Shown here: positions 30,828 to 53,745 of the stretch, in pieces | How the letters are laid out: the number at the start of each line of letters is the position of its first letter | Numbering within the stretch: the first letter of the stretch is position 1 | Source of the DNA: a virus | Virus record (IMG/VR): IMGVR_UViG_3300033747_000022 | Coordinates: 124,001 to 188,000 of that record | Length of the DNA: 64,000 bases | Strand: one strand, 5' to 3' | The notes under the pieces: generated by a model | What the model was told of the DNA's origin: nothing | What the model saw: only the letters and a program-made list of their open reading frames with translations | Databases searched by the model: none | Translations under genes and position numbers: made by a program

Positions 30828-33800
30828 ATGTCGTTTTATGTAATTAAAAGAGACGGAAGAAAAGTAGAATATAAAAATAAAAAAATTAAAGATGCAGTTT
30901 ATAAAGCAGCGAAGGCAACAGCAGAAAAAAAAGGTGAAGATTTTTGGAATTTTGTTGCAAATAATATTGTTGAAGAAATAGAAGATAATATAAGTGGAAT
31001 GATTAGTTCTGGATTAAACTCTGTTAATGTTGAGACTTTACAGGATATTGTTGAGTATGAATTAATGGAAAACAGACATTATGAAATAGCAAAAAACTAT
31101 ATATTATATAGAAAGCAGCATGAAAAGTATAGAGATGCTCAAAAACTATACAATGGAATAAATGATACAGTTAATAATTACCTTGATTTAAGCAATTGGA
31201 AAGTTAATGAGAACTCCAATATGGGTTATAGTCTTCAGGGTTTAAATAATCATATAGCAAGCGAGGTGACAGGCCATTATTGGTTAAATGAAATTTACCC
31301 TAAACACATTAAAGAAAAGCATGTAAGTGGAGATTTGCACATTCACGACCTTGCTAATTTAAGTAATTACTGTTGTGGATGGGACCTTCAGGATTTATTA
31401 TTGGAAGGTTTTTCAGGAGTGTCAACCAAGATAGAGTCGGCACCACCAAAACACTTCAGAACTGCTTTAGGACAAATGGTTAATTTTTTATATACTTTAC
31501 AGGGAGAGAGTTCTGGAGCTCAAGCTTTTTCAAGTTTCGATACTTATCTTGCACCGTTTGTATCTTATGATGGACTTGATTATGATGAAGTTTATCAGGC
31601 TATGCAGGAATTTATTTTTAATTTAAATGTACCGACACGGGTTGGATTTCAAAGTCCTTTTACAAATTTAACTATGGATTTAGTTTGTCCATCAAATATG
31701 GCAGAGGACCCAGCTATTATTGGTGGCGAAATGCTTTATGACATGCCGCTTAAAAATTTCCAGAAGGAAATGGACATGATTAACAAGGCTTTTGCTGAGG
31801 TTATGCTGGCGGGAGATTCAAAAGGAAGAGTATTTTCTTTCCCTATTCCTACTTATAACATTACTCCAGATTTTGATTGGGATAACGAAATATTAAATCC
31901 TGTTTGGGAAATGACAGCCAAGTACGGAATTCCATATTTTGCGAACTTCGTCAATTCCGATATGAAAGCTGAAGACGCTCGCTCAATGTGTCCACTTGAC
32001 GGAAAAGAAAAGGTATTAGTTAAAACAGGTGATGACAATGTAAGATACTCCCAAATTAACCACACATATTATGACACTAAAGATAATGATGATATATTAG
32101 TCTATTCTGATGGTAAATTTATAGAAGGTCGATTCAATAAGTTTGAAAATCAAAATATGATAAATGTAAGATTGGTTAACGGGCATGAGATAAAGATGAC
32201 TGAAGAACATTTAAATTTTGTTATCAAAAATAAAAATAAAGATATTGAAGAAATGTCAGGAAAAGACTTAAAAGAAGGTTATTATCTACCTTATAGCTTA
32301 ACAAGTTTTAAAGGCGAAGGAGGAACTTATGACCTTGGCTATTTAATAGGAGCTTTTGCAGGAGACGGAAGCTGTGATAAAAATACAGGAACTGTTTTTT
32401 CTTTAAATAATAATACCAAGCTAACAGTGCTTGAAAATTTAAAAGAAATACTGACTAAACTTTTTGGGGCTAAATTTACCGAAAAAGAAGAAAAAAATAA
32501 TGTAGTTAAACTTTCAACATATAATCCAGCAGTAAAATCAATGATTGAAAGTTTTGTTGATGGGGATAATGCATTAAATAAATACTTCAAAGCAAATGTT
32601 TTTGAAATGAGCAAACACTTTAGAACAGGATTATTTGATGGCTATTATGAAACTGATGGAGGAAACAAAAATAGAATTTATACATCATCAGAAAAAATGG
32701 TAGAAAGCTTAAATATGTTAGCTGCTACTCTGGGAACAACAACCAATGTTTATACTGATGACAGAAAAAAAAGTGATGGAAGACTAGGAGATAATCCAAA
32801 TTATGCTGTTTTATTTTACAAATTAAATAGAAATAGTTATGGCGACGTTTGGTTTAAAAAAGACTCAAAACTGTGGATGAAAATAGATAAAGTTGAAAAA
32901 CTAAAAGAAAAACAAACGGCTTATTGTTTTGAAGTCAAAGATGGAGAACCAATGTTTACGGTTGGCACAACTGGAATCTTGACTCATAACTGCAGGCTGC
33001 GCCTTGATAATCGGCAATTAAGAAAGCGAGGAGGAGGTTTATTCGGCTCATCGCCTATGACAGGCTCTATCGGTGTAGTAACACTTAATATGCCCAGAAT
33101 TGGACTTTTAGCAGAAAATACTGATGATTATTTAGAGAGAGTCTATGAATTAATGGATATTGCAAAAGAAAGTTTAGAAATTAAAAGAAGAATTTTAGAA
33201 GAGTTAACAGATGCAGGTCTTTACCCTTATTCTAAGTTTTATCTAAGAAGTATTAAGGAACGTTTTGGAGAGTACTGGAAAAATCACTTTAATACAATCG
33301 GATTAAATGGAATGAATGAATCTGTTATGAATTTCTTAGGAAAAGATATGACAGAACATGAAGCTATTAAATTTACTAAATGGGTTATGTACAAAATGAA
33401 AGAAAGAATGGTGGAGTACCAGGAAGAAACAAGTGACCTTTTTAACCTTGAAGCTACTCCAGCTGAAGGAACAAGCTATAGATTGGCCAAATCAGACCTT
33501 GATAAGTTTGGGAAAGAAGAAGCTGTTTTTGCTAATGATAAAAGGGTTTATACAGAAGATGCTGACCCGTATTACACTAATTCAACTCAGCTACCTGTAG
33601 GGGCTACAGACGACCCTTTTGAAGCTTTAGATTGGCAGGATGAACTTCAGAAAAATTATACAGGAGGAACAGTTTTACATTTATTTCTAGGAGAGAGAAT
33701 GCCTGGAATAGAGGCTACCAAAAAGTTTGTTAAAAGAGTTGCTGAAAATTATGAACTTCCTTATTACTCTATTACTCCTACTTTTAGTATTTGTCCAATA

Positions 33801-33869
33801 CATGGGTATCTGCCAGGAGAACACGAATTCTGTCCTAAGTGTGATGCTGAAAACGGATATGAGGGTTAG
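30828..33869 (+). CDS. nrdD: class III (anaerobic) ribonucleotide reductase large subunit, intein-containing and lacking its glycyl-radical tail
   Basis: 1013 aa including a 334-aa intein. N-terminal ATP-cone (YVIKRDGRKVEYKNKKI), then GDLHIHDLANLSNYCCGWDL, VGFQSPFTNL, RLRLDNRQLRKRGGGLFGS and a terminal zinc-type SICPIHGYLPGEHEFCPKC. The chain stops at CDAENGYEG, where related NrdD proteins continue into the CEVYSRVVGYL glycyl-radical segment. That segment is encoded separately at 35634. It reduces NTPs to dNTPs without oxygen after radical activation by NrdG. AAGGGGGAG before ATG. Confidence 0.93.
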   Translation: MSFYVIKRDGRKVEYKNKKIKDAVYKAAKATAEKKGEDFWNFVANNIVEEIEDNISGMISSGLNSVNVETLQDIVEYELMENRHYEIAKNYILYRKQHEKYRDAQKLYNGINDTVNNYLDLSNWKVNENSNMGYSLQGLNNHIASEVTGHYWLNEIYPKHIKEKHVSGDLHIHDLANLSNYCCGWDLQDLLLEGFSGVSTKIESAPPKHFRTALGQMVNFLYTLQGESSGAQAFSSFDTYLAPFVSYDGLDYDEVYQAMQEFIFNLNVPTRVGFQSPFTNLTMDLVCPSNMAEDPAIIGGEMLYDMPLKNFQKEMDMINKAFAEVMLAGDSKGRVFSFPIPTYNITPDFDWDNEILNPVWEMTAKYGIPYFANFVNSDMKAEDARSMCPLDGKEKVLVKTGDDNVRYSQINHTYYDTKDNDDILVYSDGKFIEGRFNKFENQNMINVRLVNGHEIKMTEEHLNFVIKNKNKDIEEMSGKDLKEGYYLPYSLTSFKGEGGTYDLGYLIGAFAGDGSCDKNTGTVFSLNNNTKLTVLENLKEILTKLFGAKFTEKEEKNNVVKLSTYNPAVKSMIESFVDGDNALNKYFKANVFEMSKHFRTGLFDGYYETDGGNKNRIYTSSEKMVESLNMLAATLGTTTNVYTDDRKKSDGRLGDNPNYAVLFYKLNRNSYGDVWFKKDSKLWMKIDKVEKLKEKQTAYCFEVKDGEPMFTVGTTGILTHNCRLRLDNRQLRKRGGGLFGSSPMTGSIGVVTLNMPRIGLLAENTDDYLERVYELMDIAKESLEIKRRILEELTDAGLYPYSKFYLRSIKERFGEYWKNHFNTIGLNGMNESVMNFLGKDMTEHEAIKFTKWVMYKMKERMVEYQEETSDLFNLEATPAEGTSYRLAKSDLDKFGKEEAVFANDKRVYTEDADPYYTNSTQLPVGATDDPFEALDWQDELQKNYTGGTVLHLFLGERMPGIEATKKFVKRVAENYELPYYSITPTFSICPIHGYLPGEHEFCPKCDAENGYEG
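31989..32990 (+). mobile_element. LAGLIDADG intein in nrdD
   Basis: In-frame 334-codon insertion after EDARSM. It starts CPLDGKEKVLVKTGDD and ends TVGTTGILTHN before Cys. Two dodecapeptide motifs (GYLIGAFAGDGS and TGLFDGYYETDGG) mark a LAGLIDADG homing endonuclease. The predicted ligated product is SMCRLRLD, with one Cys where many NrdD proteins have two. Confidence 0.93.
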
Positions 33870-39524: not shown

Positions 39525-39650
39525 TTGTCTTATGTTAATTTACACAACCACAGTTACTACTCTTTTTTGGACGGCTTTGATTCACCAAAGGATATTGTGA
39601 AGAAAGCAAAAGAGATGGGTCAAAAAACTGTTGCTATAACAGACCACGGT
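39525..39650 (+). CDS. dnaE: DNA polymerase III alpha subunit, exon 1
   Basis: TTG 7 bases after AAGGAGG. 42 codons encode the start of the PHP domain: MSYVNLHNHSYYSFLDG and KTVAITDHG. Reading then runs into a stop at 39657 because a group I intron follows GGT. Joining 39650 to 40781 restores TDHG-SIHNFVELYKAAK, the expected PHP sequence, in frame. Together with exon 2 the product is 1050 aa. Confidence 0.88.
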
Positions 39651-40780
39651 AAACATTAATATCATGTTATAATTATAAATATATTAGCACCTTTAAGCTA
39701 AAGAGGGTGATAAAAATTACTAAAAAAATTATTTTTTCTACAAAACAAATTAATGAAATGAAAAATCTTTATAATGATGGTTTAAGTCATAAAGATATAG
39801 GAAAATATTTTAATGTAAGTGCTTCAAAAATACAAACGACTTTCAAAGAGTATAATATAAAATCAAGAAATCCAGGAGGTCAACCACAATATAAAATAAA
39901 TCAAAAATATTTTTCTGAAATAAATTCTAAAGAGAAAGCCTATATATTAGGATTATTTTATTCAGATGGAAGCGTATATATTTCAGGAAGAAGTTATGTG
40001 GCCTCTATTGGTTTAAAAGAAGATGATAAAAAACTTCTTTTAGATGTAAAAAATGAAGTTGGTTATGCAGGTCCATTATATTACATTAAACCAAGAAAGG
40101 ATAGATATAGTAATATTGGACAATATACTCTGTCTTTTACCAATAAAAAAATATATCAAGACTTAATAAAACTAGGTGTAAAAAACACAAACTCATTACC
40201 AAATATAAAAGAAGAATATATGAATCATTTTATAAGAGGTTACTTTGACGGTGATGGATGTATATCATATTCAATAAGAAATGATAACCATCACAAGAAC
40301 TCTTTAAATTGTGAATTTTATATAATGGGCTATAAAGATATGCTAAATGAAATATCTGATGAGTTTGAAAAAAATGATATATTTATGCAAAAACCAAAAT
40401 TTCATAAATCTGATATGTACAAAATAAGAAAGTCAGGAAGGCTTGCTGTTTTGAAAATTAAAGACTACCTATATAAAGATGCTAATATATATTTAAAGAG
40501 AAAACATGATAAATTTGCCGTTCTAAACAGGAATGTTTAGAATTATTACAGGAGTATTAAGCGGGAAAGCTGAGAAGCCAATCCGAACCGAAGGCTAATT
40601 TTAAAATATTAGTCAGGGGCAACGCATAGAAAATGAAACTTTAATTTGTATTAAAGAATATAATTTTTCCAAGAGACTCCTGTCCTCACAGGTAATGCTG
40701 GTGGGCAAAAGGTATGCTGAACTTGCAGGAAATGAACTGCAAGAACTACATGGTAAAAAACTTGTAGGATAACACAATTG
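39651..40780 (+). mobile_element. group I intron in dnaE carrying a homing endonuclease gene
   Basis: 1130 bases between TDHG and SIHNF codons. The upstream exon ends in T and the intron ends in G, the group I rule. The 3' part (40541-40780) is non-coding and structured: CAATCCGAACCGAAGG resembles the Q element, GTCAGGGGCAACGCAT the R element, and CTTGCAG/CTGCAAG and CCTGT/ACAGG form hairpins. An extended -10 TATAAT at 39668-39673 may give the endonuclease its own promoter. Confidence 0.88.
39716..40540 (+). CDS. LAGLIDADG homing endonuclease encoded in the intron
   Basis: The frame is open from GTG 39707, but that GTG lies in the AGAGGGTG ribosome site. ATT at 39716 is 8 bases from GAGGG and is the better start. 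About 274 aa: an N-terminal HTH (INEMKNLYNDGLSHKDIGKY) and two LAGLIDADG helices (AYILGLFYSDGSV and HFIRGYFDGDGCI). It should cut intron-less dnaE alleles and spread the intron. Confidence 0.88.
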   Translation: MTKKIIFSTKQINEMKNLYNDGLSHKDIGKYFNVSASKIQTTFKEYNIKSRNPGGQPQYKINQKYFSEINSKEKAYILGLFYSDGSVYISGRSYVASIGLKEDDKKLLLDVKNEVGYAGPLYYIKPRKDRYSNIGQYTLSFTNKKIYQDLIKLGVKNTNSLPNIKEEYMNHFIRGYFDGDGCISYSIRNDNHHKNSLNCEFYIMGYKDMLNEISDEFEKNDIFMQKPKFHKSDMYKIRKSGRLAVLKIKDYLYKDANIYLKRKHDKFAVLNRNV

Positions 40781-46244: not shown

Positions 46245-46643
46245 ATGACTAATGCTGAGGCTATGAAAGATTTGAGAGATAGAAGAAGAGAAAATGGTCT
46301 ATGTACCCGGTGTGGGAAGGTAGTAGAGGACAATAGATATAGGATATGTTCTGAGTGCAGAAAATATTTAAATTTTTATAAAAGGTATGAAGTTCCTCCA
46401 GCCAGAGAAAAAACCTTGATTAGTCGCTCTCCAGTAAATGAAATAAAAAATGAAAAGCTTTATCAGGCCATGGTTAATAAAAGCCTTTCAACTAAAAAGC
46501 TTTCTAATAAAATAACAGCAACTCAAAGGACTGTTCAGCACTGGCTTTTTGATGGAACCGAACCCCGTAAATCAAACAAGATAGAAGTTAATAGTTTTTT
46601 TGAAAAAGATATATTTGAAATAAAGGAGGTAAAAAATGATTAA
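46245..46643 (+). CDS. zinc-finger HTH regulator (132 aa)
   Basis: N-terminal CTRCGKVVEDNRYRICSEC zinc knuckle and a C-terminal Cro/C1-like HTH (SLSTKKLSNKITATQRTVQHW). A DNA-binding regulator placed just before the replicon control region, so possibly involved in its control. Confidence 0.78.
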   Translation: MTNAEAMKDLRDRRRENGLCTRCGKVVEDNRYRICSECRKYLNFYKRYEVPPAREKTLISRSPVNEIKNEKLYQAMVNKSLSTKKLSNKITATQRTVQHWLFDGTEPRKSNKIEVNSFFEKDIFEIKEVKND

Positions 46644-46860: not shown

Positions 46861-46866
46861 AATTAT

Positions 46867-46895
46867 TTGCACATTAATATTAAATGTGTTATAGT
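46867..46895 (+). promoter_or_regulatory. sense promoter of the initiator operon
   Basis: TTGCAC, 17 bases, TATAGT with extended TGT. Predicted start near 46902, giving a leader of about 295 bases before the first ATG (47197). Confidence 0.75.
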
Positions 46896-46950
46896 TAAAT
46901 TATAAAATATGTAGTATGTAGAGTGATACTTATCAAACTAAAATTAAAAC

Positions 46951-47048
46951 AAAAAAAATAGGAGCGACCCACCAAGTCACTCCAGCAAACAAAAATAAAC
47001 TAAAACAAACAGAAAAAACAAAAATAACCATTTAATTGTTTAATTCTT
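46951..47048 (-). ncRNA. putative antisense RNA to the initiator leader
   Basis: Minus strand, about 98 bases from the promoter at 47055-47084. It ends in a terminator: GGAGTGAC, loop TTGGTGG, GTCGCTCC, then TA and eight T. The stem has a G-U pair when read on this strand but a C-A mismatch when read on the plus strand, so the minus strand is the functional one. The loop contains UUGG, a YUNR U-turn motif as in plasmid copy-control RNAs. It is fully complementary to the sense leader of the initiator operon. Confidence 0.72.
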
Positions 47049-47054
47049 GGATTA

Positions 47055-47084
47055 ATAATAACACATATAGATAATATTAGTCAA
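47055..47084 (-). promoter_or_regulatory. antisense promoter
   Basis: Minus strand TTGACT, 18 bases, TATTAT with extended TGT, pointing towards the sense promoter. Confidence 0.7.
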
Positions 47085-47196
47085 GGGTTATTTAAAAGTT
47101 TTTCCTATTCTCGCCCACTGTTTGCTGGATACTTGCCAAGACTCTAGCAGCAGTGGGCTTTATTATGCTCCGAAAACAAAAGGAGATGTAGACGAA

Positions 47197-47367
47197 ATGA
47201 ATAAAAAGAAAAGAGAAAGCTTAAAAAAAGCAATGGAGATTTATAAGAATAAGGAAAAACAAAAACCAAAAGGGTACATAGAGACTAACATCAGAATAAA
47301 GCATAGTATTTCAGAAAAACAATATGAGAAATTATTAGACTACCTATTATATGGAGGTGTTTTATAG
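47197..47367 (+). CDS. small basic protein (56 aa)
   Basis: ATG behind AAAGGAGATG at the end of the leader. 56 residues, Lys-rich start (MNKKKRESLKKAMEIYKN). It overlaps the initiator start by one base (TAGTG), so it may act as a leader peptide coupling initiator translation, or as a small DNA-binding partner. Confidence 0.72.
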   Translation: MNKKKRESLKKAMEIYKNKEKQKPKGYIETNIRIKHSISEKQYEKLLDYLLYGGVL

Positions 47368-48320
47368 TGGCTAGACCAAGTGATATTTTACGAGGAGTAG
47401 GTAGACCAATAGCTTACTATCCAAGACTGAGAAAAATTACCGGTTCTACAGTTGCAACAATATTTTTATGTCAATTTATATATTGGAAGGGAAAAGAAAA
47501 AAGTGGGGATGGATGGATATATAAAGTGCAAGAAGAAATAAAAGAAGAAACTGGCCTTTCAAGATATGAACAGGAAACTGCAAGAGACCATCTAAAAGAA
47601 AGAGGTTTATTGTCCGAAAAAAAAGAGGGGCTACCATGCCAGACCTTTTATAAAATAAACTATGATGTTCTTGATAATTTATGGGATGAAAAAATGAACC
47701 CCGATGAGCCCCGTCATGTCCAGAATGGTGGATTACCACAAACAAGCATGGGGGATTCCAACAATCAAGAATGTGGAAATGCCACAAACCAGAATGTGGA
47801 AAACAATCAAACAAGTATGGGGGATTCCAACAAACAAGTTAGTGGAAATGCCACAAACCAGAAAAGTGCTAATAACCCCGAAATAACAGTTGCGACAAAG
47901 GGTGAAATTTTACCAGAGAATACTACAGAGAATACTACAAATAATAATAATAACAAAAAAGCCGAAACTCAAAATTCAAAACTGCTTGTGGATAACTTCC
48001 AAAAAGCATTCGGTAAAAAACCAAACAATTTTCAAAAGCAGAAGCTCTCAGAGTTTGTTGATAAAGGTGGCGATTTTGAACTATTGCTCAAAACAATAGA
48101 GTACTGTGCACTAGGTGGCCACAACCAGACATTCTTTTTCAGGAGACTTGATATTCTGATGGACAAAGGTATTTATAAAAAAGATGACCTCAAAAAGATT
48201 TTTAGAAAAGACAATCTTAAAACAGCTGCAGGAGATTCTAATAAAACAGAGAAGAATAAAGTAGAGGATAATTATAAATGGAAGGATTTCTTTATAGATT
48301 TCGACAAATATAAGGAGTGA
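47367..48320 (+). CDS. replication initiator (winged-helix N-domain, DnaD-like C-domain)
   Basis: GTG 9 bases after GGAGG. 317 aa. N-terminal winged helix typical of phage replisome organisers: GRPIAYYPRLRKITGS, ATIFLCQFIYWKGKE, IKEETGLSRYEQETARDHL and KERGLLSE. A low-complexity Asn/Gln/Ser linker (residues 115-195) is encoded by DNA repeats. The C-terminal helical domain (NFQKAFGKKPNNFQKQKL...) resembles DnaD/DnaB2-type domains. It should bind origin repeats, probably in its own gene, and recruit the phage helicase. Confidence 0.82.
   Translation: MARPSDILRGVGRPIAYYPRLRKITGSTVATIFLCQFIYWKGKEKSGDGWIYKVQEEIKEETGLSRYEQETARDHLKERGLLSEKKEGLPCQTFYKINYDVLDNLWDEKMNPDEPRHVQNGGLPQTSMGDSNNQECGNATNQNVENNQTSMGDSNKQVSGNATNQKSANNPEITVATKGEILPENTTENTTNNNNNKKAETQNSKLLVDNFQKAFGKKPNNFQKQKLSEFVDKGGDFELLLKTIEYCALGGHNQTFFFRRLDILMDKGIYKKDDLKKIFRKDNLKTAAGDSNKTEKNKVEDNYKWKDFFIDFDKYKE
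47728..47854 (+). repeat. iteron-like repeats inside the initiator gene (candidate origin)
   Basis: Three dyads GTGG-n4/5-CCAC followed by AAAC at 47728, 47773 and 47842. The last two are part of a 69-bp direct repeat (about 47738-47875) that also carries GGGGGATTCC twice. The encoded 23-residue repeats are Asn/Gln-rich linker. An origin inside the initiator gene is the lambda O arrangement. Confidence 0.65.
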
Positions 48321-49680: not shown

Positions 49681-50781
49681 ATGAATATTAAGCAAAAAGG
49701 TTTTATAGGACTTATAGTATTTGGTATTTTAGTAGTTTTAGCAGGTGTGGGATTTTTTATGGTGACAGATAACATAGAGCCAGGTTTTGTTGGTTATATA
49801 TATGATAGAACTATTGACCCTGATAACCCGGGAGAAAATAGTGTGCCTGTATTAGAAGGTACTTCAGTAATCAATCAACCACGATATGGATTGGTTTGGC
49901 TAAATCCTTTTACTCAAGAAATGTATATATCACCTACTACTATCATCAGCAGGAACTGGACTAAAAACGAGCAGGAAGGCTCAAAGCAGGACGATTCTAT
50001 TGAAGCAGGAACAATTGAAGGTAAAAATGTAATAGTTGATATCTATATGTCAGTACAGCCTGAGAATGTTGCTAAGATTATCAAAAACTGGGGCGTTAAA
50101 AAAGACTTCGAGACTATCGTGGATGACGAACTTTACGGGGTTATGAAAGGTGAAGTTAAAAAAGTTACCAGAAAAACTTCAGTCTACAATTTCCAGGCTA
50201 AGGTAAGCGATATGCAGGCAGAAATCTTTGAGAATTTAAGAGATACACTCTCTGATAAATATGGTATCAAACTAATCAGATTTGAATTCGGAAATATCTT
50301 AGTTCCACAGGAAATTCAGGCAGAGATTAACCGTAAAACATCAGCTATTAATGAGGTAGAACTTGCTGAATTAGATGCTAAAAGACAGGCGGAGGTTAAC
50401 GCTAAAGAGGTTGCAAGACAGGAAGCTGAGTCAAAGCAGGAACTTATTCAAAGGAAGGCAGCTGCTGATGCCGATGCTTACGAGAAGGAAAGAAAAGCGG
50501 ATGCAGAAGCTTATTCTATTGAAAGAAAAGCAGAGGCTATTAAAATGGCAGCCAAAAATAAATATGAGGCAGCTATCCTGGAAAAGAAAGCAGAATTAGA
50601 AAAACAGCAGGCTTATACAGATGTATATTTTGCTGATAGAAAGCTTGACCTGCAGACTAAAGCAGTTACAAGTATCAATGAGAAGATGAAGATTATCGTT
50701 ACTCCAGAAGACGGAAGTGGTATAGGTTCAATGCCTGGTATAATGGGTATCTTAAATGAAATTAATGGAGCGATGGAATAA
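49681..50781 (+). CDS. SPFH/band-7 domain membrane protein (prohibitin-like)
   Basis: 366 aa. One N-terminal membrane helix (GLIVFGILVVLAGVGFFMV), then the SPFH domain (IEPGFVGYIYDR, YGLVWLNPF, VDIYMSVQPENVAKII, YGIKLIRFEFGNILVP) and an Ala/Glu/Lys-rich coiled coil (residues 220-310) for ring assembly. SPFH proteins scaffold membrane domains and proteases. In a phage it could organise the envelope, block other phages, or delay lysis. Flanked by two small membrane proteins. Confidence 0.88.
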   Translation: MNIKQKGFIGLIVFGILVVLAGVGFFMVTDNIEPGFVGYIYDRTIDPDNPGENSVPVLEGTSVINQPRYGLVWLNPFTQEMYISPTTIISRNWTKNEQEGSKQDDSIEAGTIEGKNVIVDIYMSVQPENVAKIIKNWGVKKDFETIVDDELYGVMKGEVKKVTRKTSVYNFQAKVSDMQAEIFENLRDTLSDKYGIKLIRFEFGNILVPQEIQAEINRKTSAINEVELAELDAKRQAEVNAKEVARQEAESKQELIQRKAAADADAYEKERKADAEAYSIERKAEAIKMAAKNKYEAAILEKKAELEKQQAYTDVYFADRKLDLQTKAVTSINEKMKIIVTPEDGSGIGSMPGIMGILNEINGAME

Positions 50782-50948: not shown

Positions 50949-50954
50949 AAAAAG

Positions 50955-50976
50955 AGAGGCGGATAATTCCGCCTCT
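50955..50976. terminator. terminator between convergent genes
   Basis: AGAGGCGGA-ATAAT type hairpin, nine perfect pairs. On the minus strand it is followed by CTTTTTTT, so it mainly ends the minus-strand gene; the plus-strand tail is weaker. Confidence 0.8.
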
Positions 50977-51203
50977 TAATCTAAATCTTCTTCGACATAC
51001 TTAGAGTGTGACTGGCCTAGTTTTTGGTATTTTGAGTAATATTTTTTAAGGATATAACGGTATCCTTCTTCGGTTAATTCATTTATATTACGCTTAATAC
51101 CAATCTTTCTAAGCCTTAAAGAAAGCATCTTAATTTCATAATACACGTCGGGGTCAATAGTGCCACTGAATTCTATTCTTTCTATTTTTTTCTTTTTCGA
51201 CAT
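50976..51203 (-). CDS. ribbon-helix-helix type DNA-binding protein (75 aa)
   Basis: Minus-strand gene with GAGGTGAGG before ATG at 51203. Basic start MSKKKKIERIEF, then SGTIDPDVYYEIKMLSLRLRKIG and NINELTEEGYRYILKKYY, the strand-helix-helix order of Arc/MetJ-type repressors. Its promoter contains an 8-bp palindrome, as expected for autoregulation. Likely a repressor acting also on the divergent gene at 51390. Confidence 0.75.
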   Translation of the reverse strand: MSKKKKIERIEFSGTIDPDVYYEIKMLSLRLRKIGIKRNINELTEEGYRYILKKYYSKYQKLGQSHSKYVEEDLD

Positions 51204-51389: not shown

Positions 51390-52085
51390 ATGACATGTGT
51401 AGTTGGATTTAAAGCAGAAAAAGAAAACAAAATATATATTGGCGCTGACACTGTTGGCTCTACAAATTACACAAAAGAAAACAGGAAAGACGGCAAGGTA
51501 TTTGCTTCAGGTGATTTCACAATCGGTTTTGCGGGCTCTTATAGAATGGGACAGGTATTGCAGTATAAATTAGATGTTCCGGCACAGAAAGACTCTCAGA
51601 CAGACCACGGCTATATGGCCACGACATTTATCGATGCAGTTAGGAGACTTTTTGATAAAAATGGTATTATGGGTGTCGACCAGGACAACAAGGAATTTGG
51701 CGGTTTGTTTTTAGTAGCATATAAAAATGAGCTCTATAGAATCGACTATGACTTTCAGGTTGGTATCGGAAGTGAAGACTTTACCGCTATAGGTTCCGGT
51801 GGAGAGGTAGCTTTGGGGGCTATGTACGCTTTAAATAGTTTTGATGAAGTTGAGCCTACTGAAAAGATAACAATGTCTATTCTGGCGGCTATGGACCTTA
51901 CACCGTTTGTTGGTGGAGATATCGAAATTGTAAGCCACACTTATGTTGAAGAGACAGCAATTGATAAGGTGTATGACAAGCTTTCTGATATGACAGACGA
52001 GGATTTGCTGGAGATTCAGGAATACCTTGATATGACTATCTGCGATAATAATATGATGGCTCTCGGTGTTGATGAGTGTGAGTAA
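51390..52085 (+). CDS. proteasome/HslV-like Ntn hydrolase
   Basis: ATG 51390 chosen (8 bases after GGAAGTGG), which puts Thr directly after Met: M-TCVVGFKAEKENKIYIGADTVG. Removal of Met would expose the N-terminal nucleophile. VFASGDFTIGFAGSYRMGQVL, FGGLFLVAYKNELYRID and AIGSGGEVALGAMYAL follow the HslV/proteasome beta-fold order. 231 aa, longer than HslV. No HslU-like ATPase is seen, so it may use a host unfoldase or act alone. Confidence 0.8.
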   Translation: MTCVVGFKAEKENKIYIGADTVGSTNYTKENRKDGKVFASGDFTIGFAGSYRMGQVLQYKLDVPAQKDSQTDHGYMATTFIDAVRRLFDKNGIMGVDQDNKEFGGLFLVAYKNELYRIDYDFQVGIGSEDFTAIGSGGEVALGAMYALNSFDEVEPTEKITMSILAAMDLTPFVGGDIEIVSHTYVEETAIDKVYDKLSDMTDEDLLEIQEYLDMTICDNNMMALGVDECE

Positions 52086-53745
52086 GAAAACTAAATATAT
52101 ATTCGTGACAGGAGGGGTTGTCTCTGGATTAGGAAAGGGGTTAACTTCTGCATCGCTTGGAATGTTACTTAAAGCTAGAGGGTTAAATATTAAGGTTCAG
52201 AAATTTGACCCCTATATAAATGTTGATGCTGGGACAATGAACCCTATAGAACACGGAGAGGTTTTTGTTACCAATGATGGAGCAGAAACTGATTTAGACC
52301 TTGGCCACTATGAAAGGTTTATTGATATAGAGCTTTCTGGAATTAATTCTGTCTCAACAGGTCAAATCTATCAGGAAGTTTTAGATAACGAAAGAAAAGG
52401 CAAATACTTAGGTAAGACAATACAGGTAATACCTCATATCACTGATGAGATAAAGCGCAGGATGACCCTGCCGGAAGACGATAAGACTGATGTGATACTA
52501 ATTGAACTCGGGGGCACTGTAGGAGATATTGAAAGCTTCCCTTTTGTGGAGGCTGTAAGGCAGTTAAGACATGATTTAGGTTTTGATAACACATTCCATG
52601 TTCACTGCACATTAATTCCTTACATGCATAAAGTAGGAGAGTACAAATCAAAACCTACCCAGCAGAGCTTAAAGGAGCTTAGAAGTCTTGGCGTTCAGCC
52701 TGATGCTGTAGTCGGCAGAATTAAAGATAAAATGCCTGAAGAAATAAGGGATAAGATTTCTTTATTTGGAGATATAGACAAGGAATTAATATTTGAGTCA
52801 GTTGATGTAGAGCACATTTATGAAATACCTCTCAAATATGAAGGTCAGGATATGGCTAAAAAGGTAATGGAGAAACTTGGTTTTAAATCATTTCAGAGTT
52901 ATCCTCAAGATATAGATGACTGGGGGCATATGCTTGTAAATTTACAAGAAAAAAAAGAAAAGGTAAATATAGCAGTTGTGGGAAAATATACACAGCTCGA
53001 AGATGCATATCTCAGCATCAAAGAGGCTTTAATACATGCAGGTCTTAAAAATCATCTCGATGTTGATATTACATTTATTGACTCTCAAGAGCTTGAAGAT
53101 TTAAGCTGTGATGAAGCAGTTAGAATAACATTAAAAGGATATGATGGAATATTAGTCCCTGGTGGATTTGGTGAGAGAGGCATTGAAGGCAAGATAAAGG
53201 CGGCTAAATATGCAAGAGAAAATAAGGTCCCTTACTTTGGTATTTGTCTTGGCATGCAGGTTGCAGCTATTGAATTTGCCAGAAATGAGTTAGGACTAGA
53301 AGATGCCAACAGCTTAGAGTTTGACAGTGAAACTAAAAACCCTGTAATAACCCTCATGAATGAGCAGAGAGAGGTTGTTAACAAGGGCGGAACAATGAGG
53401 CTTGGCTCTTATGATTTTACAGCAAAGCCTTTAAAGTCAAGAGTTCACAGCGCCTACATCGACCATTTAGAATTAAAAGAAAGGCATCGTCACCGCTTTG
53501 AGTTTAACAATGATTACAGAAAGTTATTTGAAGCTAACGGGGTTGTATTCTCAGGTCTATCACCGGACGGAAAGCTTGTTGAAACAATGGAGCTTAAAGA
53601 ACACAGATGGTTTGTTGGTGTGCAGTTTCATCCGGAGTTTAAGTCAAGACCTTTGAGGCCACACCCTTTATTTGTTGATTTTGTAAAAAATGCTTCTACG
53701 AGGAGATGGATACAATCAGTAATGAGTTCACAGGAAAAGAATTAA
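52072..53745 (+). CDS. pyrG: CTP synthase
   Basis: 557 aa, full length. Synthase half: YIFVTGGVVSGLGKGLTSAS, KFDPYINVDAGTMNP, GEVFVTNDGAETDLDLGHYE and ELGGTVGDIES. Glutaminase half: PGGFGERGIEGK, PYFGICLGMQVA with the Cys, and GVQFHPEFKSRP with His and Glu. It makes CTP from UTP, glutamine and ATP. It overlaps the upstream gene by 14 bases. A complete pyrG is unusual for a phage and matches its uracil permease and dCTP deaminase. Confidence 0.95.
   Translation: MSVSKKTKYIFVTGGVVSGLGKGLTSASLGMLLKARGLNIKVQKFDPYINVDAGTMNPIEHGEVFVTNDGAETDLDLGHYERFIDIELSGINSVSTGQIYQEVLDNERKGKYLGKTIQVIPHITDEIKRRMTLPEDDKTDVILIELGGTVGDIESFPFVEAVRQLRHDLGFDNTFHVHCTLIPYMHKVGEYKSKPTQQSLKELRSLGVQPDAVVGRIKDKMPEEIRDKISLFGDIDKELIFESVDVEHIYEIPLKYEGQDMAKKVMEKLGFKSFQSYPQDIDDWGHMLVNLQEKKEKVNIAVVGKYTQLEDAYLSIKEALIHAGLKNHLDVDITFIDSQELEDLSCDEAVRITLKGYDGILVPGGFGERGIEGKIKAAKYARENKVPYFGICLGMQVAAIEFARNELGLEDANSLEFDSETKNPVITLMNEQREVVNKGGTMRLGSYDFTAKPLKSRVHSAYIDHLELKERHRHRFEFNNDYRKLFEANGVVFSGLSPDGKLVETMELKEHRWFVGVQFHPEFKSRPLRPHPLFVDFVKNASTRRWIQSVMSSQEKN

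Follow-up and report, generated by a model that had tools for sequence, protein, structure and literature searches.

The untranslated leader of a replication initiator gene (rep) was analysed in the virus record IMGVR_UViG_3300033747_000022 (203,584 bases), within a window of 64,000 bases that comprises bases 124001-188000 of that record; positions are those of the window unless they are given as genome positions. This leader is probably a copy-number control device of the pT181/pIP501 type acting on a plasmid-type initiator, by which antisense-driven attenuation would let the 204-kilobase (kb) phage persist as a low-copy plasmid. Antisense-driven attenuation of rep is a known type of control from the plasmids pT181 and pIP501 (PMC5703833, PMC4981023), and in pT181 binding of the antisense RNA prevents a pre-emptor sequence from pairing with one arm of the attenuator (PMC5703833). 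The original prediction, which was made from the nucleotide sequence alone, had proposed control of this kind for the phage gene. The elements it named (opposing promoter-like sites, a terminator, an attenuator and complementary strings) were all located where it had placed them, and antisense-driven attenuation fits the sequence in every part that could be computed, namely pairing, folding order and uniqueness.

The leader of the rep operon comprises 295 nucleotides (nt) on the plus strand (46902-47196), counted from a transcript start predicted at approximately 46902. The predicted sense promoter (46866-46895, plus strand) reads TTTGCA-18-TATAGT with a TG before the -10 box and matches the consensus at 9 of 12 positions, while the predicted antisense promoter (47055-47084, minus strand) reads TTGACT-18-TATTAT, again with a TG before the -10 box, and matches at 10 of 12. 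The string TGTGTTATnnTTAA is common to both promoters and occurs nowhere else in the genome, but this concerns two sites only. Terminator scans detected no plus-strand terminator between the end of the upstream gene (46860) and 47113, therefore read-through could also supply the rep leader. No convincing open reading frame for a leader peptide with a Shine-Dalgarno sequence was found in the 295-nt leader.

From the antisense promoter and terminator, an antisense RNA of ∼98 nt is predicted on the minus strand (46951-47048), a full complement of the leader over this stretch, with a folding energy of -18.8 and a z-score of -3.2. Its intrinsic terminator (46961-46983, minus strand) consists of the hairpin GGAGUGACUUGGUGGGUCGCUCC at 46983-46961 followed by UAUUUUUUUU, a run of eight U residues. 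The hairpin had been described as sound on the minus strand only, and this was borne out by the energies, which were -14.2 kcal/mol on the minus strand and -9.3 kcal/mol on the plus strand; a U-G pair on the minus strand becomes a C-A mismatch on the plus strand, where no U run follows the hairpin. Terminator-like sites were enriched in the region (4 found, compared with 0.9 +/- 1.0 in shuffled sequences). The terminator of the predicted RNA opposite the rep leader is clear; the promoter predicted for it matches the consensus, as sites do by chance at this frequency. The terminator loop could form a kissing contact with the matching leader hairpin loop. A U-turn motif, UUGG, had also been pointed out in the antisense loop and is indeed present there; as an argument it is weak, since the U-turn emphasised in the work on pIP501 belongs to the target RNA (PMC4981023), and we estimate that a YUNR match would be expected by chance in about one in four loops of 7 nt.

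The attenuator hairpin (47113-47158, plus strand; -27.5 kcal/mol, z-score -4.8) is the strongest structure of the leader and is followed by UUUAUUAU (47159-47166), so that an attenuator with a U-rich tail stands upstream of the rep translation start, as it does in pT181 and pIP501. A pre-emptor (46971-46991, plus strand) pairs with part of the 5' arm and the loop of this hairpin (47119-47135, plus strand) through 11 + 5 base pairs (bp) with an energy of -22.2 kcal/mol. Within this duplex, TCCAGCAAACA (46981-46991) is the exact 11-nt complement of TGTTTGCTGGA (47119-47129), the two strings lying 127 bases apart, and CAAGT/ACTTG (CAAGU/ACUUG in the RNA) extends the helix to 16 bp across a small internal loop. 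The original prediction was therefore correct that the leader carries a complement to the attenuator, and that this lies inside the stretch covered by the antisense RNA; its length is 16 bp and not 9. The pre-emptor region lies within and just beside the antisense hairpin, so that the antisense RNA would leave no part of it free, and competition for the 5' arm of an attenuator from inside the antisense target is again found in pT181 and pIP501.

The order of folding was computed by prefix folding, that is with growing transcripts. For transcripts with 3' ends between 47135 and 47150 the attenuator arm was held by the pre-emptor (∼15-16 pairs), and from a 3' end at 47154 the attenuator was the more stable form. 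When the antisense region was blocked in silico, only the attenuator formed. There is thus a clear order of folding, which matches the order of events in pT181 and pIP501. The stability of the pre-emptor duplex was reached in 2 of 2000 composition-matched shuffles. An antisense terminator together with a complementary attenuator arm was found for one of the 50 terminator candidates on both strands of the 203,584-base genome and for none of 128 terminators in 12 Markov genomes. A further minus-strand terminator between plus-strand genes at genome position 110495 (near L011:10493-10518), outside the window, was considered as a second antisense candidate and rejected, as it has a terminator and no pre-emptor, and the gap consists mostly of a small open reading frame.

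These data suggest the following course of events. The antisense RNA would start at the promoter at 47084-47055, end at 46961-46951 and bind the nascent rep leader, probably with a first loop-loop contact between the terminator loop and the matching leader hairpin. At few genome copies antisense RNA would be scarce, the pre-emptor would seize the 5' arm of the attenuator once this was transcribed, and the polymerase would pass, with the first cistron of the operon and Rep being made. With more copies and more antisense RNA the pre-emptor would be covered, the attenuator would form and transcription would stop at approximately 47166; Rep and replication would then fall, giving negative feedback on copy number. 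Such feedback would also cause incompatibility between like genomes. Rep itself would bind iterons inside its own gene and dock to the helicase-loading machinery of Halanaerobium through a tail shared with a DnaD-like protein of the host, while a partition locus would help the 204-kb phage to persist as a low-copy plasmid.

The ribosome binding site AAGGAG (47180-47185, plus strand) precedes the first cistron (47197-47367, plus strand), which encodes 56 amino acids; its product had no family match and no relative in viral contigs. This cistron overlaps the start of rep (TAGTG), and rep is therefore probably translationally coupled to it. The rep gene (47367-48320, plus strand) encodes a protein of 317 amino acids with a winged-helix N-terminus, a disordered linker, a helical DnaD/DnaB_2-like domain and a C-terminal tail. 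By its N-terminal domain Rep belongs to the O-like/DnaD-like initiators (PHROG 9773, E 2e-47, residues 4-220), and the matches to the DnaB_2/DnaD domains were weak. The structure model, with a modest mean predicted local distance difference test score of 57, showed a winged-helix-like N-terminus, a disordered linker (residues 114-199) and a helical C-domain; weak fold matches (E 0.05-0.3) included, according to the descriptions of the entries, an initiator, a complex of Rep with DNA and a DnaD N-terminal domain. Membership of the RepA_N group was rejected, as Rep gave no match to the RepA_N domain of Pfam at E values up to 1 and the likeness is one of architecture only. The gene is a replication initiator related to plasmid Reps.

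The part of rep that encodes the linker contains about six copies of a 23-bp iteron-like direct repeat (47716-47876, plus strand), which form a candidate origin, and these are followed by an A+T-rich stretch (69 percent; 47886-47995, plus strand) that is a candidate unwinding element. The lambda O gene, whose product resembles the phage Rep in its N-terminal family, likewise has iterons and an A+T-rich stretch inside the gene; it is not known to have such a leader or a host-type tail. The codons at 48264-48317 (plus strand) specify the C-terminal tail of the phage Rep, EDNYKWKDFFIDFDKYKE; the host DnaD-like protein ends in the same residues. The tail motif YKWKDFFIDFDKYK does not vary among 13 DnaD-like loci of Halanaerobiales hosts, and the phage has it unchanged. 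The host is very probably the salt-loving bacterium Halanaerobium or a close relative, because the last 18 residues of Rep recur without any difference at the C-terminus of the chromosomal DnaD-like protein of H. saccharolyticum, whose gene adjoins genes for a helicase-loader-like and a replicative-helicase-like protein. Over 53 bases the phage tail DNA is 88.7 percent identical to that of the host, which suggests exchange. The C-terminal motif YKWKDFFIDFDKYKE was common to the phage Rep, the plasmid-like Reps and the chromosomal DnaD-like proteins of Halanaerobiales (L014:8001-8057 and further loci, L050-L062). This shared motif is likely to be a docking peptide for the helicase loader.

The nearest full-length relatives of Rep, 38-39 percent identical, are encoded on two Halanaerobiales contigs (G021:C59, L063, and G017:C8, L064), one of 10 kb and one of 47.5 kb, in compact operons of parA, a partner gene and rep. 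From their gene content these contigs appear to be plasmids. Their rep genes carry 21-22-bp repeats in the same part of the gene, and their Reps end in variants of the phage tail. The phage also encodes a ParA (PHROG 164, E 3.5e-66) that is 36 percent identical to the ParA of L063; its gene and that for a partner of 113 amino acids lie at genome positions 78201-79347, outside the window. Downstream are three 54-nt repeats around CCTGGGTCGTTGGTTAGTTG, which look like a centromere, and together ParA, the partner and the repeats form a probable partition locus. The search for partition genes that the original prediction had called for was therefore positive (genome 78.2-79.6 kb). ParA, partner and repeats (genome 78201-79604, L009:18201-19604) lie at a strand switch, close to the minimum of the cumulative GC skew. 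A divergent non-coding region of 1.2 kb beside parA (genome 77024-78200, L009:17024-18200), also outside the window, contains the short direct repeats CATCACCGTCATC and TTTCTCACACT and is a possible second origin or control region.

The record thus holds both virion and packaging genes (terminase, portal, tail sheath) and plasmid-type replication and partition genes, as is expected of a phage-plasmid. No match to the tyrosine or serine recombinase families (Phage_integrase, Resolvase) was found in the whole record, with positive controls detected, and for these families the phage has no integration module. A division of labour between a lytic replisome and a Rep for the plasmid mode is plausible. 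In a fuller form, which we put forward tentatively and regard as somewhat less likely than not to hold in all its parts, the phage would have two modes of replication, one lytic with its own polymerase, clamp, primase and helicase, and one as a plasmid, in which the host-tailed Rep would borrow the Halanaerobium primosome and be kept at low copy by antisense attenuation. Incompatibility and superinfection exclusion would both follow from the antisense RNA, and a pT181-like switch would have been reached independently on an unrelated initiator.

A number of observations weigh against copy-number control in a plasmid state and bear on other explanations of the leader. The phage has replisome genes of its own (DnaB-type helicase, primase, clamp and polymerase III alpha, and also RecJ), which would allow Rep to serve lytic growth instead. 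The minimum of the cumulative GC skew lies near parA at 77.5 kb, away from rep, and because of this a second origin near parA is possible; gene direction also switches there. An antisense leader was found in none of the related plasmid-like reps, 9 of the 12 loci having been scanned, and these included the two full-length relatives, in which rep follows close behind parA and partner, unlike the arrangement in the phage. It is conceivable, though unlikely, that the antisense RNA and the attenuator serve to adjust lytic replication (its early timing, prevention of runaway initiation, exclusion of a second infecting copy) and not plasmid copy number, with ParA otherwise used or a relic. Given the phage's own replisome genes, rep could belong to a lytic module. 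The early genes form a long plus-strand block and rep lies within this early operon block; phage P1 keeps its lytic and plasmid replicons separate (PMC9948254). The host DnaD-like tail and the kinship with plasmid Reps, however, fit the use of host machinery, the partition locus seems complete with ParA, partner and repeats, and no match to the two recombinase families was found.

The U run that follows the attenuator is interrupted (UUUAUUAU), as might be expected if the hairpin at 47113-47158 were no functional terminator and the antisense RNA acted mainly on translation or RNA stability, either in the manner of pSK41 or via RNase III. Staphylococcal RepA_N plasmids do hide the ribosome binding site by an antisense-induced hairpin without termination (PMC5703833). 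The phage hairpin, in contrast, stops 21 nt short of the ribosome binding site and excludes it, therefore it would not hide this site directly, and its stem and T-rich tail are of the attenuator kind; action on translation or stability is accordingly judged quite improbable. Slightly less credible still is an attenuator that answers another signal (a protein, a ligand or the ribosome), with the minus-strand hairpin merely stopping stray antisense transcription. Such a role would agree with the attenuator being the strongest structure of the leader and with the fact that plus-strand genes of this genome have a minus-strand terminator between them in at least one further place, where a pre-emptor is not apparent (genome 110495). 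The Rfam scan, however, matched the leader to no riboswitch, T-box or other family, nor was there a convincing leader peptide, and it would be left unexplained why the pre-emptor lies just where the antisense hairpin and its flanking bases overlap the leader.

Promoter-like sites were not enriched, with 8 found against 8.9 +/- 2.9 in shuffled sequences. Such sites carry little weight alone, because their frequency is no higher than in shuffled sequence; A+T-rich sequence gives such matches at chance frequency. When base pairs between the arm and the leader were counted in place of energy, a softer measure, the observed value was reached in 14 of 300 shuffles. The energy of the pre-emptor duplex was reached in 31 of 1923 genomic windows, which is a caution, these windows being unmatched for composition. 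No homologous leader was found by DNA search in the sequence collections, and none by searching viral contigs with rep, RecJ, DnaE or the 56-amino-acid protein. Twenty-eight matches to the pattern CCAGCAAAC..GTTTGCTGG and five to the hairpin string were rejected as sister leaders, being unrelated sequences. Sister contigs 99 percent identical, found through the terminase, gave no rep; the stretches available cover the structural region only. That the hairpins and complementarity arose by chance, for which these promoter and pairing counts and the single genome without conservation data speak, is nevertheless highly improbable in view of the real terminators and Markov genomes above, the enrichment of terminator-like sites in the region and the position directly before an initiator gene.

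The device resembles several known systems and differs from each. Like repC/RNAI of pT181, it has a (here predicted) RNA antisense to an untranslated leader, an attenuator just before rep and a pre-emptor for the 5' arm of the attenuator (PMC5703833); pT181, however, is small, replicates by the rolling-circle mode and has a Rep_trans initiator, whereas here an iteron-containing, winged helix-turn-helix and DnaD-like initiator is found in a 204-kb tailed phage, and no sequence homology was found. The repR/RNAIII system of pIP501 and pAMbeta1, which are theta plasmids, shares with the predicted device a leader of ∼300-330 nt, an opposing antisense promoter midway and attenuation (PMC4981023), but RepR is of another family, RNAIII measures 136 nt against the ∼98 nt predicted here, and the U-turn was studied in the target RNA whereas the phage motif is in the antisense loop. 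The position of CopR in pIP501 is occupied here by a zinc-ribbon-like protein of 132 amino acids (46245-46643, plus strand), upstream of the leader; a regulator role for it is only a guess from this position. Its match to the repressor family PHROG 3 (E 0.03) was below significance, and an XRE/CopR identity was rejected, the sequence search being empty and the structure model of low confidence.

With pSK41 and the chimaeric pPR9, which are of the RepA_N type, the phage shares a winged helix-turn-helix N-terminus, origin boxes coded in the linker, a DnaD-like C-domain and, as predicted, an antisense RNA to the leader (PMC5703833). In pSK41-type plasmids the origin lies in the linker coding region, and pPR9 combines a plasmid C-domain with an N-terminus of the phage type (PMC5703833). 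The antisense RNA of pSK41, however, acts on translation and not on transcription, and the phage Rep lacks the RepA_N match. An Rfam scan of the leader gave no match at the gathering threshold and no plasmid counter-transcribed RNA at E values up to 5. Judged by these searches, the device is not a member of any known family of counter-transcribed RNAs nor of RepA_N. Plasmid replication is already known in phages, in some of them on an RNA basis (PMC7157519, PMC11652158), and in extrachromosomal mycobacteriophage prophages parABS replaces the integrase and plasmid replication is RepA- or RNA-based, with no antisense-driven attenuation of an initiator described in the available part of that account (PMC7157519).

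Antisense-driven attenuation of rep comes so far from small and mid-sized Gram-positive plasmids, and no report of it on a phage initiator was found in the open-access literature, most subscription journals lying outside this scope. If the proposed control is correct, large phages are able to adopt the copy-number control of plasmids or to invent it anew, and the leader would make the persistence of the phage in Halanaerobium open to testing and would supply a compact attenuator for use in an organism whose genetic tools are few. The C-terminal motif that the phage and plasmid Reps have in common with the DnaD-like protein of the host is a short candidate docking peptide that is directly testable.

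Both ends of the virus record share a 59-base direct repeat, from which the genome is probably complete or circular, though the repeat could also come from packaging or assembly. Sister phages from other IMG/VR samples (L015, L016, L017) were 98-99.5 percent identical in the structural region, and their records do not contain the replication regions. No relatives of the terminase were found across 59 genomes of the host class. Moorella phage MTATph1, a distant relative by its terminase that has an annotated integrase and partition protein, was rejected as a close model.

Several other genes of the window were recorded. The polymerase III alpha gene (39525-40778) seems to be split within its PHP domain into a short N-terminal piece (39525-39659), an open reading frame of 277 amino acids resembling a homing endonuclease (39707-40540) and the remainder; no Rfam intron was matched in the interrupted interval. 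A gene for 75 amino acids lies on the minus strand inside the plus-strand block (50976-51203) with its own strong terminator at 50953; its product had no family match and by eye is ribbon-helix-helix-like. The window also contains a complete CTP synthase gene (52078-53745), a gene for a protein that by eye is band-7/prohibitin-like (49681-50781) and an anaerobic ribonucleotide reductase gene with an intein and a LAGLIDADG region (30828-33869).
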